NCBI RefSeq assembly: GCF_009811795.1
Contig: NZ_BLJE01000003.1
Location: 62,001 to 126,000 of the forward strand
Direction of reading: 5' to 3'
DNA: 64,000 nucleotides
DNA from: Litoreibacter roseus
GTDB lineage: Bacteria; Pseudomonadota; Alphaproteobacteria; Rhodobacterales; Rhodobacteraceae
In this document: positions 16,852 to 25,856 of the stretch, piece after piece
How the letters are laid out: every line of letters starts with the position of its first letter
Position numbering within the stretch: position 1 is the stretch's first letter
The notes under the pieces: generated by a model
Seen by the model: the letters and a program-made list of their open reading frames with translations, nothing else
The model's database searches: none
What the model was told of the DNA's origin: nothing
Position numbers and translations under genes: made by a program

Positions 16852-19800
16852 CTACTTGTTCTGGGCGACCATCTGCTCCAATTCATCTTCGGTAAGCTTC
16901 GCCCAGCACGGCATCTCTGCCTGCCCATTGCGTACGAAACTGGGCCGAAAGGCCTCCACCGTGATCTCAAGAGGGCTGGTCACGCCCTCGCTCGTCCAAA
17001 CCTCGGTCCGGCGGCTTTCTTCGTAAACATCATCAAGCGGCCGATTTCCGTTCGGCTCCGCCTCGGTTGTGCGCAGCGCTTTTCCGCCCGGTTGATCGGT
17101 GTCGAAAACGAGTAGCCGTTCCCGCGTAATCCGATAGAGCGCGCGCTCCGCCGTGCTGGTGGGCGCGACGCACTCAAAGGTTGCGATGATGCCCTGCATG
17201 TCAGGAAGAACTTCAATCCGGTCGTGCCATTGATTGCCGATCCGCACGCGCGGGTTCTTCCACAGGCGCTTGCCGGTCAGCCGGACACTCGCAGATCGCC
17301 CGGATTGAATAACCGTCATATCCCGCTCGCTGACATCGAGATACGGCGCGCGAATGATGAAGAAACCCAGCTTCTGCAGGACGTCCTGACCATCGCCGGG
17401 CAGGGGGATCGGGAAACGGTGCAATGACCTGTCGGCGCGGGACCGTGCCCTCTGTCTGTCGATCAGCTCCAGCCCTGTGCGCGTTTGACGATCAACAACG
17501 GTGTTTTCGCAGAAGTCGGCGGTTCGAGTATTTTCACGGAGCGCCGCTGGCCTCAGCCAGCAGGTTTTGATCGTGGCCTCTGCGGTTGGCCACCAACTGG
17601 GCAGAGAAACGATAGCCGACAGCGGAACACTCATAGAGATATGCCGCTTGGGTTCTCTGCGGCTCGGCTGGCGCGGCACGACGATCCAGGAGATATTCGT
17701 CGCGATGTGTCGCTGTTTCGCGCCCACCCGGGCTATGTCATCCAGCGACAGGCTCGCCAGATTTTGCCCGATCCATGGCACAGGCTCGACACTCGCCAAA
17801 CCGTTTGAAACCGCAGGATCAAGGCAGCTTTCATCTGATACCTCCTTGGCGAGGGGTGAGGTCATCATGACACCGCAGAAGATGTTGCGGCGCCACGCGG
17901 CCATGCCAGCCGGTGCGCCGTCCCAAAACTCGGATGTTTCATCGAAGAAATCCGCAGCAAACCCATTTTCGCTTTCAAGCGGCTGAAACTGTTCGAGGAT
18001 CCAGAAGAACGCGCTGCCGCATTCCTCAATGTCTTCCTCGCCTTCTGTCTCGCCCCAATCTCCGATGCCGAAGACATGGTCGCTGTGTTCGCGGGTTGCG
18101 GCAAAATTCTCTGTCCGCATGCGACCCGCGATGCCCGGAACAAGATCGGCAAGCATCGTCCAGCCATCGCGATCAGAGCGGAAGCTGCGGGCCCGTTCTC
18201 CGGTGCGTGGCCAGACCGTGTAGCTGCGTGCTGTCGAAAAGCAGGACAGTTCCAGAAACAGGCGCAGGGCCTCTTCCCGACCGATCTCGCGAATTCGGTC
18301 AAGATTGTAAGCGTCGCCCGTCTTCGGGTGCTCTCTGGTTTCGGCATATTCCATCAATGTATAGACACTGACCTGACAACTGCTGATCTCGCAGCTTTCA
18401 ATCTCGAACTTGAAATAGTGAGACAGAGGTCGTGTGCGCACGACGCTGTCAACGCGCGTATCCTCCAACTCTGCCTTCACCAGATAGGACACACCTACAT
18501 TGCCGATCTCGACGGTCGAGCCAGGGCGCATTAGCCGTTCGAACCGTTCGGTATCCTTCAAAGCGGAAACGGCCATGCGGGTCTGTGCGCAAAACGGGCT
18601 GGTAATATCGGGCACGTTCGGATCGCGTAGAGCAATCAAGCTCGATACCAGCTGACGAGCATCCCCGGCGTTCATTCTCGCGCACAGGATAAATCCCGGA
18701 TCGCGCGCTTTGAGAAGCTCAATTGCCCCAAGGATGCGAAGTTTCGCGCGCGGCAGGCTAAGTTGCAAATCTGTCGGGCAGGGGTAGACAATGTTTCGCC
18801 TGTGCAAAACCTCGAGCAAGCGTGCTTCCAATAGCGTTTCTAGTTGATCACTAGGGGGTTTCGAACCTTTCACCCAAGTCGCATTTACCGTGTTGTTCGT
18901 GCCGGGCGGCGTGTCCGGACCATCTGCGTCGATCTCCTGCGGGATGGGCAATGGCTCGCCTTGCCTCGTTATCTGCCCCGGGCCGTACTTGTTGTAGCCA
19001 GCAAGGACGCTTGCGTAGGTTGAACTTGATTGGTTGAAAACACTCGGTGCGAGGTCGAAAAGGCTATGAGGTTGACCACACTGTGAAAGCAATTTTTGTG
19101 CTGCAATACGTCCGAATGTCGATGGATTGGACTGACCTGCAGGGAAAAGTTTTTCGCCCATTCCGCTCCAGGGGGCTGTACCAGTGACAAGAGCTTCTGC
19201 GAAATCATAGGCTTCACGTTCCACACGTACGCTGTCCTGTTGTAACGCCGCTGCCAGTAAGTCTGACTGCTGTTGGGATGGAAATACCATAAGCGCTTTG
19301 TCCAAAGCGCTGTCCAGAATGTATGCGGGTCTTTCCTGAAACGCGTATCGCCCATCGTTCAAAAAGACGGAGCTACGGTCGGACTGAAGCGTTTCGACCG
19401 TACGTTCGAGTTCCTTGCGAACCTCGACCAACAGGCTGCCATAGTACTGAAAAATCTTCTCAGGATCGCTGGGCTGTTCAATCGTGATCGTCGCCGCGGC
19501 GATCGCATCGCTCATGTTACGAGCAGGACTTACAGTCATGCGAAAATTCAGCCTCTGCAGCGTGTTGGAGCCGATGTCATGGGCATCGTCCAGAATGGCC
19601 TCATAACGGCTCTGGGTCAGCATCTCGCGGTAGTATTGCGCCGCTTGAAAAACCGCGAGGGGCTGCGGTTCGACCAGGCCCTGCAGTTCGGTGATATCCA
19701 CGGTTGGAAGCGTGTCGGAGGCATCTGCCTTTTCCGCACCTTCCTGAACCAGTTCCAGAAACTTCTGGCTGAGTTGCAGGGCATCGGCCTGCGCGAACTT

Positions 19801-20133
19801 CTTGTCTTCCAGCAGCTTGTCGACCTGTTCGAGCTGCTTCTCGATCCACGCGCTGTCCTTCAGGCGCTGGTTCACCAATCGTTCCCGCGTAAACACCTGC
19901 GGGGAATCGACCATGATCATCCCTTCGCTTTCGGTGCTGTACCAGATCCCAGCATCGCGCCTGACGCTGTCTAGAGTTTGCAGTGTACGTGCCGGAGGAA
20001 AGGCCCAGACGGCCAGCCCCAATGCCACAAGAAGACCAGCGCCCGTTCCGGTCGCCGTCGCCACGCTGCCAACTGACTTCTTGACCATAGTGCCCGACGC
20101 GCTGCGCAACCATCTGAAAAAACCTTTGAACAT
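16852..20133 (-). CDS. Very large membrane-anchored protein of unknown function, partner of the radical SAM peptide system
   Basis: A single uninterrupted 1093-codon frame. A basic cytoplasmic N-tail (MFKGFFRWLRSASGTMVKKS) is followed by one membrane span (about residues 30-47, GAGLLVALGLAVWAF), so most of the protein should be periplasmic. Residues ~95-140 look helical and charged (EKQLEQVDKLLEDKKFAQAD). About fifteen cysteines are scattered through it (for example ESCEISSCQVS), consistent with disulfides. I recognise no enzymatic motif or named domain. The gene starts four bases after the radical SAM stop, with TAGGAGAG as ribosome-binding site, so it is almost certainly co-expressed with precursor and maturase. 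Export, processing, assembly or immunity are all possible roles; none is shown. Confidence 0.85.
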   Translation of the reverse strand: MFKGFFRWLRSASGTMVKKSVGSVATATGTGAGLLVALGLAVWAFPPARTLQTLDSVRRDAGIWYSTESEGMIMVDSPQVFTRERLVNQRLKDSAWIEKQLEQVDKLLEDKKFAQADALQLSQKFLELVQEGAEKADASDTLPTVDITELQGLVEPQPLAVFQAAQYYREMLTQSRYEAILDDAHDIGSNTLQRLNFRMTVSPARNMSDAIAAATITIEQPSDPEKIFQYYGSLLVEVRKELERTVETLQSDRSSVFLNDGRYAFQERPAYILDSALDKALMVFPSQQQSDLLAAALQQDSVRVEREAYDFAEALVTGTAPWSGMGEKLFPAGQSNPSTFGRIAAQKLLSQCGQPHSLFDLAPSVFNQSSSTYASVLAGYNKYGPGQITRQGEPLPIPQEIDADGPDTPPGTNNTVNATWVKGSKPPSDQLETLLEARLLEVLHRRNIVYPCPTDLQLSLPRAKLRILGAIELLKARDPGFILCARMNAGDARQLVSSLIALRDPNVPDITSPFCAQTRMAVSALKDTERFERLMRPGSTVEIGNVGVSYLVKAELEDTRVDSVVRTRPLSHYFKFEIESCEISSCQVSVYTLMEYAETREHPKTGDAYNLDRIREIGREEALRLFLELSCFSTARSYTVWPRTGERARSFRSDRDGWTMLADLVPGIAGRMRTENFAATREHSDHVFGIGDWGETEGEEDIEECGSAFFWILEQFQPLESENGFAADFFDETSEFWDGAPAGMAAWRRNIFCGVMMTSPLAKEVSDESCLDPAVSNGLASVEPVPWIGQNLASLSLDDIARVGAKQRHIATNISWIVVPRQPSRREPKRHISMSVPLSAIVSLPSWWPTAEATIKTCWLRPAALRENTRTADFCENTVVDRQTRTGLELIDRQRARSRADRSLHRFPIPLPGDGQDVLQKLGFFIIRAPYLDVSERDMTVIQSGRSASVRLTGKRLWKNPRVRIGNQWHDRIEVLPDMQGIIATFECVAPTSTAERALYRITRERLLVFDTDQPGGKALRTTEAEPNGNRPLDDVYEESRRTEVWTSEGVTSPLEITVEAFRPSFVRNGQAEMPCWAKLTEDELEQMVAQNK

Positions 20134-20137
20134 GCAC

Positions 20138-21274
20138 TCACTCTCCTACCGGCGCGGTTGCTTCAATCCGGGACAACAGCGCGTCAAAACTCGTCTTGAT
20201 ACTCAGGCGGCAATGGGCGGTTTCGGCGACATCGAACCGTCCGTGCTCACCCAATTTGTTGGCGGGTGCCCCACCGCCGCATAGATCAAAATGGGCGCAA
20301 CTCTTTTGACAGGCCGTGATGCCTGCAGAAATCTGGCGCAGCGTTCTCAGAAACTGACTATCGAAATAGATTTGCCCCAGATCGCGAAGGCCATGGACGT
20401 TACCAAAACTGAACCCACCGTGGTCGGGGGCAGGCGTGCCCAAAAGCTCGGGCGAGAATGTCGATATCTCACCTCCAACCACGACCGAGATAATTGCGCC
20501 CGCAGTGTTTTCCTGATTGCGACGAGGCGTCCGGTCGGGGCGTGTTTTCAAAACCTGCATCAACTGATCTAGTTCGCGCAGACGCGGGGGATTTTGGTGC
20601 GTTTCAACTCGATCCACAAACCGGATCAGGAAATCGCTGTATTGGCTTACTGTAATCTTCCCAAGAAGGCTGGAACTTGTGTTGATGCCTTCGATCTCTT
20701 CAACATTCAGGCCGATCGAGTAAGCCCCTGTGGCGACAAGAGCATCCGCAATTTCCTCAGGGTGGGCGAGCGAGGCCGCACTGACAACGGCGATGATATG
20801 AAACGGGATGTTTTCGAACCTCAGCCGCGCGATGCCGTCCATCGCTTTGTCGTAGGTGCCCTGTCCGCCACGTCCGACACGCCATTGGTCATTGAGAAAG
20901 GCGGGCCCATCAAGACTGACACCCACGGAAACGCCCGGCTTGCGGAAATAGGTGATCCAATTGTTGTCGATCAGGGTTGCATTGGTCTGAAAGGACTGGC
21001 GCTTGATCTTGCGGCCAGATGCGGCCTCCAGTTGCGCGATGGCGTCAGCGTACCAGTCCGGGGGCAACACCAAAGGTTCCCCCGCGTGCCAGACGACGGT
21101 GCTGTCCTCGCGAAAGAAGGGGCTGGCCACGATGCTGCGACCCACCGCAGTCAGCGTCTCGGGTGTCATCTGCGCCTTCAGGGACCGGTCCGGCAGATAG
21201 CAGTATGTGCAATTGAGGTTGCAGAAAGGGGTGGGCTGAAGAACAAGAAGTTGGATGTCGGCCAGACCGGGCAT
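20138..21274 (-). CDS. Radical SAM/SPASM peptide maturase (GrrM-like, probable cyclophane-forming)
   Basis: 378 residues from the ATG at 21274. A GTG at 21346 would add 24 residues, but these are encoded out of frame inside the precursor's repeats and look spurious. The radical SAM cluster motif is C18-x3-C22-x2-C25 (CNLNCTYC), with AGEP (WHAGEPL) downstream. The C-terminal SPASM-type region has C322, C326, C332 and C355 within ACQKSCAHFDLCGGGAPANK and ETAHC; the CGGG-P-NK-E-G-ET-C pattern resembles GrrM-type maturases from memory. Such enzymes crosslink an aromatic residue to the beta-carbon of a residue two positions later. It starts 11 bases after the Trp-rich precursor's stop, making that peptide its probable substrate. 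Confidence 0.9.
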   Translation of the reverse strand: MPGLADIQLLVLQPTPFCNLNCTYCYLPDRSLKAQMTPETLTAVGRSIVASPFFREDSTVVWHAGEPLVLPPDWYADAIAQLEAASGRKIKRQSFQTNATLIDNNWITYFRKPGVSVGVSLDGPAFLNDQWRVGRGGQGTYDKAMDGIARLRFENIPFHIIAVVSAASLAHPEEIADALVATGAYSIGLNVEEIEGINTSSSLLGKITVSQYSDFLIRFVDRVETHQNPPRLRELDQLMQVLKTRPDRTPRRNQENTAGAIISVVVGGEISTFSPELLGTPAPDHGGFSFGNVHGLRDLGQIYFDSQFLRTLRQISAGITACQKSCAHFDLCGGGAPANKLGEHGRFDVAETAHCRLSIKTSFDALLSRIEATAPVGE

Positions 21275-21285
21275 CGGTCTGCGAC

Positions 21286-21540
21286 CTACCAGTTTGGCCA
21301 GTTTCGCCAATTCGACCAGTTGTTCCAATTGCTCCAGTTTCGCCACTGCGCCAACGGTCCCGGTACTTCTTTTGGGGTCACACCAGTCGCCGATCGAGCG
21401 GCGTCAAGCCTTTCGGTCAAGGACGCCTTTTCCGTGCGAAGAGTGTCGGAGTTGGGGGTGGACGCTTGAGTAGACCCGCCGAGGACGACGGTCACGCTGG
21501 TCAGGGCAAAAGCCGCGATACGAATACCAAACCGGTACAT
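21286..21540 (-). CDS. Trp-rich RiPP precursor peptide with signal sequence and six W-X-N triplets
   Basis: 84 residues from the ATG at 21540, supported by GAGG seven bases upstream. An in-frame ATG further upstream would place 13 residues before the signal and lacks a good ribosome site. Residues 1-27 (MYRFGIRIAAFALTSVTVVL then GGSTQAS) form a Sec-type signal peptide. Residues 28-64 are a polar leader containing SLTERLDAAR, similar to the L-x-x-R-L element I recall from GrrA-type leaders. The C-terminus, residues 66-84, is WRNWSNWNNWSNWRNWPNW: seven Trp at exact three-residue spacing, each of the first six followed two residues later by Asn. That is the W-X-N pattern of triceptide cyclophane substrates. 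The maturase gene follows immediately. Confidence 0.88.
   Translation of the reverse strand: MYRFGIRIAAFALTSVTVVLGGSTQASTPNSDTLRTEKASLTERLDAARSATGVTPKEVPGPLAQWRNWSNWNNWSNWRNWPNW
21289..21345 (-). repeat. 9-base tandem repeat encoding the W-X-N core
   Basis: Six 9-base units of the form TGG-NNN-AA(C/T) plus a final TGG encode W66 to W84; the variable codons give Arg, Ser, Asn, Ser, Arg, Pro. The unit length and reading phase are strictly kept, while the third bases of Asn and the middle codon vary, showing selection on the protein rather than recent slippage. In the +1-shifted frame the same bases read as a Leu-rich repeat, joined in frame to the maturase gene. Confidence 0.9.
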
Positions 21541-24261: not shown

Positions 24262-24879
24262 ATGACCGAAGCCCTCGAAGAACTGGCTGCCCATATCGAA
24301 GTGAAGCGACCCGATTGCGTGCTGTCGACTGAGATCCTCCACGAGGAACTTACTGTCAACATTGCGCCCGCCTCGCTTCTAGCATTCACCGAATTTCTCA
24401 AGACAGACCGGAACTGCCGGTTTTCCACGCTGATCGACATCACAGCCGTTGACAATCCAACCCGCGACAAACGGTTCGACGTGGTTTACCACTACTTGTC
24501 GATGTATCAGAACCATCGGATCCGCGTGAAGCTGGCCATCCGGGAAGAGGACACTGTGCCCTCCATTACCGAGGTTTATCCGGCAGCCAACTGGTTCGAG
24601 CGTGAGATTTTCGATATGTTCGGCATTCTCTTTTCTGGTCATCCGGATCTGCGCCGCATCCTCACCGACTACGGCTTTCGCGGCTATCCACTGCGCAAGG
24701 ACTTTCCCACCACCGGCTACGTCGAGGTGCGCTACGATGAAGAGCAAAAGCGCGTGGTTTATGAGCCGGTAAAACTGGTTCAGGAATATCGTCAGTTCGA
24801 TTTCATGAGCCCTTGGGAGGGCGCGAACTACATTCTGCCAGGCGATGAAAAAGGTGAAGAGAAGGACGCGGCGAAATGA
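24262..24879 (+). CDS. nuoC: NADH-quinone oxidoreductase subunit C
   Basis: 205-residue 30-kDa peripheral-arm subunit. The signature [23 protein letters not shown] is split across the central region and followed by [25 protein letters not shown] before the ATG is an excellent ribosome-binding site. NuoC is separate from NuoD here, unlike the fused NuoCD of enterobacteria. Its stop overlaps the sulfotransferase start (ATGA). Confidence 0.97.
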
Positions 24880-25856
24880 TCGCAGCGCCCCCGGAAAATT
24901 CTGCCCCGCGCACAGGCGTCCCGCTTGTACCGGGCAGCAGGTATCCGGGGCTTCGGAAGTTTTTCATCTGTATTGGCGCCCAGAAGGCGGGGACAACCTG
25001 GCTGCATGAAATGCTCAGCCGTCATCCGGACTGTCATCTGCCGCCCGTCAAGGAAGTACGGTTCTGGGACGCGCGGATTGATCGCGATGACCGCTTTGCA
25101 TTCAAAGTCGCTGATCGGCTGCAGGATGCGGCGCGCGGACGCCTTTACCGGGCCGTGACGCGTCACCCTCGTGATCTTCCGGCAGCTGTCAGGCGGTTTC
25201 GCCATGTCAGGGCGTTTGACCGGATGCTCAAGTCAGCTGGTACCCCGTCTGGTCCAGCGACCTATGGTGATTTCGTGATGATGGGATATCGTGGACAGCC
25301 TGTGGCAGGGGAACTGACCCCGAACTACTCGCTTCTCGACACCGAGGATTTCCGTCAGATGGCCGAGGTTCATCACGGGAATTGTTTCCTGTTTATCATG
25401 CGGGACCCGGTCGCCCGGCTTTGGTCCGGTGTTCTCCACAAATTCCGGAAAAGACTGAAGGCTGGCACGGTGTCCGATGCAGAGGTCTTTGACCGCCTTG
25501 AGTTTGAGATCGCCGATCCTCAAGCCGTTAACGCGATGCGGTCCCGCTACGACAGGACGATTGGCGCGTTGGAGGCCGCAGTGCCGCAACAGCGGATCCT
25601 CTACCTGTTCTATGAGACACTCTTTTCCGATCAGGCCCTTCGCAAAATCACCGACTTTCTTGGAATTGAGACTGTTTCGGCTGATCCGGCGTACCACGTG
25701 AATGTCAGCCGCAGGCCGGGGCTCAAACCTTCCGCAGATCAGGCGAGGCGGGCAAAAGCCGCGCTCGCGCCGGTCTATGAATTTGTGCACCAAAGGTTCG
25801 GGGCCGATGTGCCACCGACTTGGGGACACGCCTTTACACACGGAGAACGCGCATGA
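24876..25856 (+). CDS. Sulfotransferase inserted in the nuo operon
   Basis: 326-residue PAPS-dependent sulfotransferase-like protein. The 5'-phosphosulfate loop is [19 protein letters not shown], and the 3'-phosphate-binding element is [28 protein letters not shown] and the C-terminal [10 protein letters not shown] are usual in the family that sulfates carbohydrates or small molecules. It lies exactly between nuoC and nuoD with four-base overlaps at both ends (ATGA, ATGA), so it is translated as part of the complex I message. Nothing in complex I biology needs sulfation, so this looks like an acquired passenger or a lineage-specific function. Confidence 0.88.

Follow-up and report, generated by a model that had tools for sequence, protein, structure and literature searches.

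What does a protein of 1093 residues do beside a small peptide and the enzyme that would cross-link it? The question is raised by a three-gene cassette in a 64,000-nucleotide stretch of the Litoreibacter roseus genome (contig NZ_BLJE01000003.1, positions 62,001 to 126,000), called here the window, in whose own numbering all positions are given. On the minus strand, from 21540 to 16852, a gene for a precursor peptide of 84 residues is followed by a gene for a GrrM-type maturase (378 residues) and by one for the giant partner (1093 residues), with 11 bases between precursor and maturase and 4 bases between maturase and partner. Our answer, which we regard as evenly poised between right and wrong, is a Grr/Osc-type triceptide cassette in which GrrM would form cyclophanes, the Sec pathway would export the peptide, and an anchored periplasmic partner would bind it.

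The evidence that ties the three genes together comes from other genomes. Next to eight of the nine full-length partners there is a GrrM scoring over its family cut-off, with an aromatic-x-Asn precursor ahead of it, and the ninth (genome G830) also has all three close by, though a further gene of 251 residues separates maturase from partner. The preliminary description of this DNA had reported the three adjacent minus-strand genes with their spacings, a precursor with seven evenly spaced Trp and an Asn two residues after each of the first six, a radical S-adenosylmethionine (SAM)/SPASM enzyme of triceptide type, and a proposed link between W-x-N precursor, maturase and 1093-residue protein. 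The gene order and the precursor are present as stated, the enzyme exceeds the GrrM/OscB cut-off, and the link extends to all nine full-length partners (9/9).

These partners come from samples that are draws from larger groups, searched with at most two first-look candidates scored per genome, and absences are weaker than presences. Among 394 genomes of the family, six match the partner. Besides the window, these are G255, G215 and G188, where the partner is full-length, and G106 and G078, where a shorter paralog is all that matches. A partner profile matches eight of 390 genomes of the order, adding the full-length partners of G521, G532 and G448 and a short one in G640. In the class it matches two of 385, namely the window and G830, a member of a different family. 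The last full-length partner, from Roseobacter sp. WL0113 (locus L051, extended as L175), was reached through a DNA pattern scan. Partner or maturase searches reached 7/9 cassettes, the others being the window, as the starting point, and L051, which entered via the W-x-N motif; L051 and seven other loci that came through this pattern among the matches listed (L036, L039, L042, L052, L056, L082, L115) do not test the motif.

Looking from the maturase side, the GrrM/OscB model TIGR04261 is exceeded in 6/394 genomes of the family, namely the four partner genomes plus G126 and G330, where GrrM has other neighbours. In the class it is exceeded in 5/385 (the window, G830, G922, G925, G999). The overlap in the family sample (4/4 full-length-partner genomes among 6 GrrM genomes of 394) has a hypergeometric probability of 1.5e-8, and that in the class sample with the window's own genome excluded (1/1 partner genome among 4 GrrM genomes of 384) a probability of 0.01. 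Both figures assume independent genomes, and adjacency is the stronger evidence.

Where the partner is missing, GrrM can still be present. Searched for directly in 14 genomes or records, the partner turned up in G830 only, and GrrM was seen in 12 of the 13 negatives: G126, G330, G922, G925, G999, a Phaeobacter plasmid and six pattern-scan genomes (L036, L039, L052, L042, L082 and L056, the last with no more than a GrrM fragment at the edge of the locus). L115 showed a W-x-N precursor only, with no maturase within its 8 kb. Local profile searches over the sequence retrieved for 15 partner-less loci, with L115 and the plasmids L185 and L186 among them, did not find the partner, nor was it found in the plasmids or viral contigs searched. 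A single-protein scan of genome contigs, an approach that detects close relatives only, also found nothing.

Do homologous maturases always stand beside W-x-N precursors, as the preliminary description proposed to check? For the close relatives they do, and for distant GrrM in part. Eight partner-less GrrM loci were reached through the maturase; five have an aromatic-x-Asn/Asp precursor (L168, L169, L170, L184, L185), L148 has a partial one, and none was seen in L147 or L186. Tandem W-x-N precursors also occur near GrrM without the giant protein in genomes and metagenome-assembled genomes titled Alphaproteobacteria, Bacteroidetes/Neptunitalea and Leptolyngbya, among the matches listed, and G925 has an F-x-N core near GrrM and no partner. 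The same description had put the whole system forward as a candidate undescribed one. For maturase and precursor this does not stand, given W-x-N precursors with a shared leader beside other GrrM.

Four loci outside the cassettes deserve mention. A Phaeobacter piscinae plasmid typed as conjugative (NZ_CP010716.1, L184:4627-6176) has GrrM and a W-x-N precursor and no giant partner. A GrrM-adjacent precursor at L170:4897-5181 has a tandem, all-Phe F-x-N core (QFPNFPNFNNFPNF...). In addition, L029:140-2433 and L096:7207-7970, from metagenome-assembled genomes titled Syntrophobacterales and Deltaproteobacteria, encode peptides of 64-69 residues ending in seven and nine W-x-N. These peptides have no obvious signal sequence, a small secreted-looking protein lies upstream in both, and in L029 the peptide adjoins a radical SAM enzyme whose scores fall far short of the cut-offs of all 25 best models listed. 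They are possibly a separate, unnamed W-x-N system.

The precursor itself (21286..21540, minus strand, like all cassette features below) ends in QWRNWSNWNNWSNWRNWPNW, seven Trp at every third residue, the first six with Asn at +2. The core, WRNWSNWNNWSNWRNWPNW (21289..21345), consists of six W-x-N units and a C-terminal Trp. This repeat is beyond chance. A DNA pattern for W-x-N-W-x-N-W-x-N-W has 4 overlapping matches in the window and 0 in 100 dinucleotide shuffles, and shuffling the core's own residues retains all six W-x-N in 230 of 200,000 trials. Across the nine cores, with the identical cores of L159 and L160 both counted, 49 of the 56 Trp have Asn or Asp at +2 and each of the remaining 7 ends its core; in shuffled cores the count has a mean of 20 and a maximum of 33 (20,000 trials). 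Recent DNA slippage is an unlikely source of the repeat because synonymous codons differ (AGC and TCG for Ser, AAC and AAT for Asn) and because the spacing varies among sister loci with aromatic-x-Asn kept. F-x-N replaces W-x-N in some relatives, at variable spacing, and the conserved unit is therefore aromatic-x-Asn. Each of the nine cores has five to seven aromatic-x-Asn/Asp units.

Ahead of the core, an alignment of 17 precursors places the leader motif ERLDAAR (21394..21414), and Arg followed by Leu, Ile, Met or Val is found in 17/17, eight of them from partner-less loci. The N-terminus has a Sec-like hydrophobic segment at residues 8-19, as given by a hydropathy score with no trained signal-peptide predictor behind it; together with A-x-A-like sites this suggests a signal segment of about residues 1-26 (21463..21540). 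This anatomy, an R-L/I/M/V leader and an aromatic-x-Asn core, is shared with GrrM-associated precursors and resembles that of GrrA/OscA1, although the window precursor is not a formal member of TIGR04260.

The maturase (20138..21274) is easier to place. It scores 351.6 bits against the NCBIfam model TIGR04261 (GrrM/OscB; curated cut-off 310), which all eight sister-locus maturases also pass. The second-best model, AmcB (NF041718), gives 293.6 bits, below its cut-off of 425, and the XyeB, YhhB and FxsB models are far under theirs. It has the radical SAM cluster motif C-x3-C-x2-C (FCNLNCTYCY, 21200..21223) and a SPASM-like Cys-rich end (CQKSCAHFDLCGGG...HC). A longer maturase start, overlapping the precursor, was considered and rejected because the sister loci L016, L017 and L051 have short gaps instead. 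In L015, L159, L160 and L161 the first possible maturase start does overlap the precursor, and the choice of start is uncertain for these loci. According to a review, OscB joins Trp C7 to the C-beta of Asn or Asp, and Phe C4 to the C-beta of Asn, at i,i+2 (PMC11002830). With the window maturase over the GrrM/OscB cut-off, chemistry of this known type would be expected, and by analogy with the maturase family, tandem Trp-Asn cyclophanes may form in the window peptide.

The partner (16852..20133) has no significant match in Pfam, NCBIfam or the PDB sequences; when the whole protein, the N-terminal part and the C-terminal module were each used for profile searches of the PDB sequences, the best E was 0.15. 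A lone hydrophobic segment lies close to the N-terminus in all 12 partner-family members examined. That of the window is a single predicted transmembrane segment at residues 24-45 (19999..20064; Kyte-Doolittle), and the bulk of the protein is predicted to be periplasmic because five basic and no acidic residues precede it. Two stretches are common to the whole family: TRERLVN, with small changes (residues 82-88, 19870..19890), and L-D-D-x-H-D, whose D182, D183, H185 and D186 are invariant in the aligned members. Two others, a C-x4-C pair (residues 581-586, 18376..18393) and a PSWW...C[WF] stretch, occur in 9/9 cassette partners and in 0/3 short paralogs, both patterns having been picked after the alignment was inspected. 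The nine cassette partners contain 12-18 Cys. A conserved C-terminal module, at about residues 940-1060 (16954..17316), contains VWTSEG; an Ig/TIG-like fold considered for it is unsupported. As predicted from these features, the partner represents a family of single-segment membrane proteins and is a new part of the cassette.

The short paralogs (738-814 residues; L018:6357-8732, L019:5226-7442, L162:6182-8626) come from genomes in which no GrrM exceeds the cut-off. A gene that looks HAD-like by eye is upstream of the paralog in L018 and L019. The role of these short proteins may disclose the basic function of the partner.

Trees of the maturase and the partner place eight family members in the same two supported groups, one of the window, L175, L015 and L016, the other of L161, L017, L159 and L160, and within one group the branching order is identical in both trees. 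In the maturase tree the eight are grouped at 89/89, with G830 unresolved outside. A branch of the partner tree (100/100) sets the three short paralogs apart.

Several observations weigh against the answer given at the outset. The branching order of the other group differs, the partner tree pairing L175 with the window and the maturase tree pairing it with L015, and among cassette members the G830 partner is nearest the short paralogs, its position being unsure given long branches. The occurrence of short paralogs in GrrM-free genomes implies a separate role for the partner family. AlphaFold gave a mean predicted local distance difference test score (pLDDT) of 29.6 for the partner with one relative and 32.5 for its C-terminal 171 residues alone. 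The counts of Lys/Arg and Asp/Glu ahead of the segment are (9, 10) in L016, (6, 9) in L159, (2, 9) in L160 and (2, 4) in L167; there acidic residues outnumber basic ones, and by simple count the charge rule that predicts a periplasmic bulk fails. Finally, the window precursor matches no precursor model, with no match to TIGR04260 (GrrA/OscA1, cut-off 31 bits) at E up to 10. Five sister precursors, in a scan that omitted L016, L159 and L160, gave 23.5 bits (L167) and 15.0 bits (L161), both below the cut-off, and three without match; five partner-less precursors included L169 at 55.2 bits and L056 at 20.5 bits. The apparent kinship of precursor and GrrA thus draws on short leaders and on two sub-threshold matches among five sisters.

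How might the cassette work? GrrM, guided by the R-L leader stretch, would act on the precursor in the cytoplasm and bond every Trp to the Asn at +2 through its C-beta, giving up to six tandem W-x-N cyclophanes. The signal sequence would route the precursor through Sec, and signal peptidase would cut off roughly 26 N-terminal residues, so that a flexible stretch remains together with a stiff rod of rings that has a free Trp at the end. Both the Sec export and the periplasmic partner are predictions from sequence. The partner, whose one N-terminal helix would anchor it while most of the protein presumably faces the periplasm, would recognize and hold the rod, serving at the inner membrane as the cognate receptor or scaffold for it. 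This putative binding role is a guess and the least certain step. A bolder version, in which the rod is a stiff structural or signalling ligand, a permanent part of an envelope machine built on the giant partner and not a released metabolite, is possible but we hold it only tentatively.

The alternative that survives best, though we think it unlikely, makes the ring peptide a diffusible antibiotic that targets the envelope in the manner of darobactin or dynobactin, with the partner as an immunity, delivery or processing protein. The maturase is distantly related to the maturases of those compounds (126.3 bits against DynA, cut-off 450; 88.9 bits against DarE, cut-off 650), far below membership, and 7/9 cores end in a free Trp. 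The cassette is also patchy, as accessory antimicrobial loci are: partner and GrrM are both absent from the 4/4 congeners searched (G511, G519, G565, G171). On the other hand, a Sec-like signal takes the place of any transporter or protease seen in common to the cassettes, the number of aromatic-x-Asn/Asp units varies by locus, and a large partner with conservation over its whole length, and with paralogs where GrrM is missing, is unlike a small immunity protein.

We give a somewhat lower chance to the partner being an enzyme, a protease, ligase or transferase that processes or attaches the cyclophane peptide, instead of a binding scaffold. The three-gene cassette contains no other protease gene, and the invariant L-D-D-x-H-D stretch could be catalytic or metal-binding. 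This stretch, however, recurs in the short paralogs, whose genomes lack GrrM, and hence has no exclusive tie to the peptide, and the searches of Pfam, NCBIfam and PDB sequences returned no enzyme family.

Could the large gene be a neighbour, without functional tie, of an ordinary Grr/Osc triceptide? The short paralogs in GrrM-free genomes would fit, but the full-length partners stand with GrrM in every case, across genera and in the second family of G830, with flanking genes that differ (by eye), and in 12/12 other GrrM-bearing genomes or records the partner was not found; we consider such a chance neighbour very improbable. A peptide without rings, Trp-rich and membrane-active, with the maturase acting on something else, has an equally small chance, given that the Trp-to-Asn/Asp register is held in every core despite variable spacing and that OscB, according to the review cited above, joins these very residues (PMC11002830).

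In its genomic setting the cassette is an accessory locus. With gene names read from sequence, the cassette and a TrkH-like gene occupy the interval between enoyl-CoA hydratase and nuoA in the window, whereas one other gene lies there in the congeners G511, G519 and G565; in the fourth congener, G171, the enoyl-CoA hydratase is located elsewhere. A foreign origin by base composition was dropped, the G+C of the cassette being like that of its flanks, and for the same reason gain and loss are indistinguishable. Further along, a gene that by eye is sulfotransferase-like lies inside the nuo operon, between nuoC and nuoD (24876-25856). G565 has a 32%-identical sulfotransferase-like gene at the same position, and none was found at that place in G511 and G519.

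We know of no established function of Grr/Osc triceptides for their producers, and a dedicated, linked partner would therefore be a direct handle on that role. The nine cassettes form a natural series in which the aromatic-x-Asn/Asp units number five to seven and the partners fall into two groups. The C-x4-C and PSWW features, which only cassette partners have, point to a possible peptide-binding region of the partner. If the proposal is true, up to six back-to-back Trp-Asn cyclophanes would make an unusually stiff peptide. In the open-access literature no title or abstract dealt with the partner or the cassette; mention in two key triceptide papers is possible.

Among known systems, XyeB, FxsB, YhhB, DarE and DynA are related SPASM maturases of cross-linked peptides, against whose models the window enzyme scores far below the cut-offs. 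AmcB is likewise a cyclophane maturase, and again the window score is far too low for membership. The leader motif in common, the sub-threshold GrrA matches and the W-x-N or F-x-N precursors near other GrrM argue for kinship with Grr/Osc, and judging by these sequences precursor and maturase are of the known Grr/Osc triceptide kind, though the window precursor fails the formal model. Like those triceptides, the cassette has a maturase over TIGR04261 and a precursor with a hydrophobic N-terminus, an R-L leader and an aromatic-x-Asn core. Unlike them, it has back-to-back W-x-N units, a terminal Trp (in 7/9 cores) and the giant partner, in whose place the Grr/Osc locus of G126 has a substrate-binding-like protein beside GrrM, presumably of the sort named GrrP.

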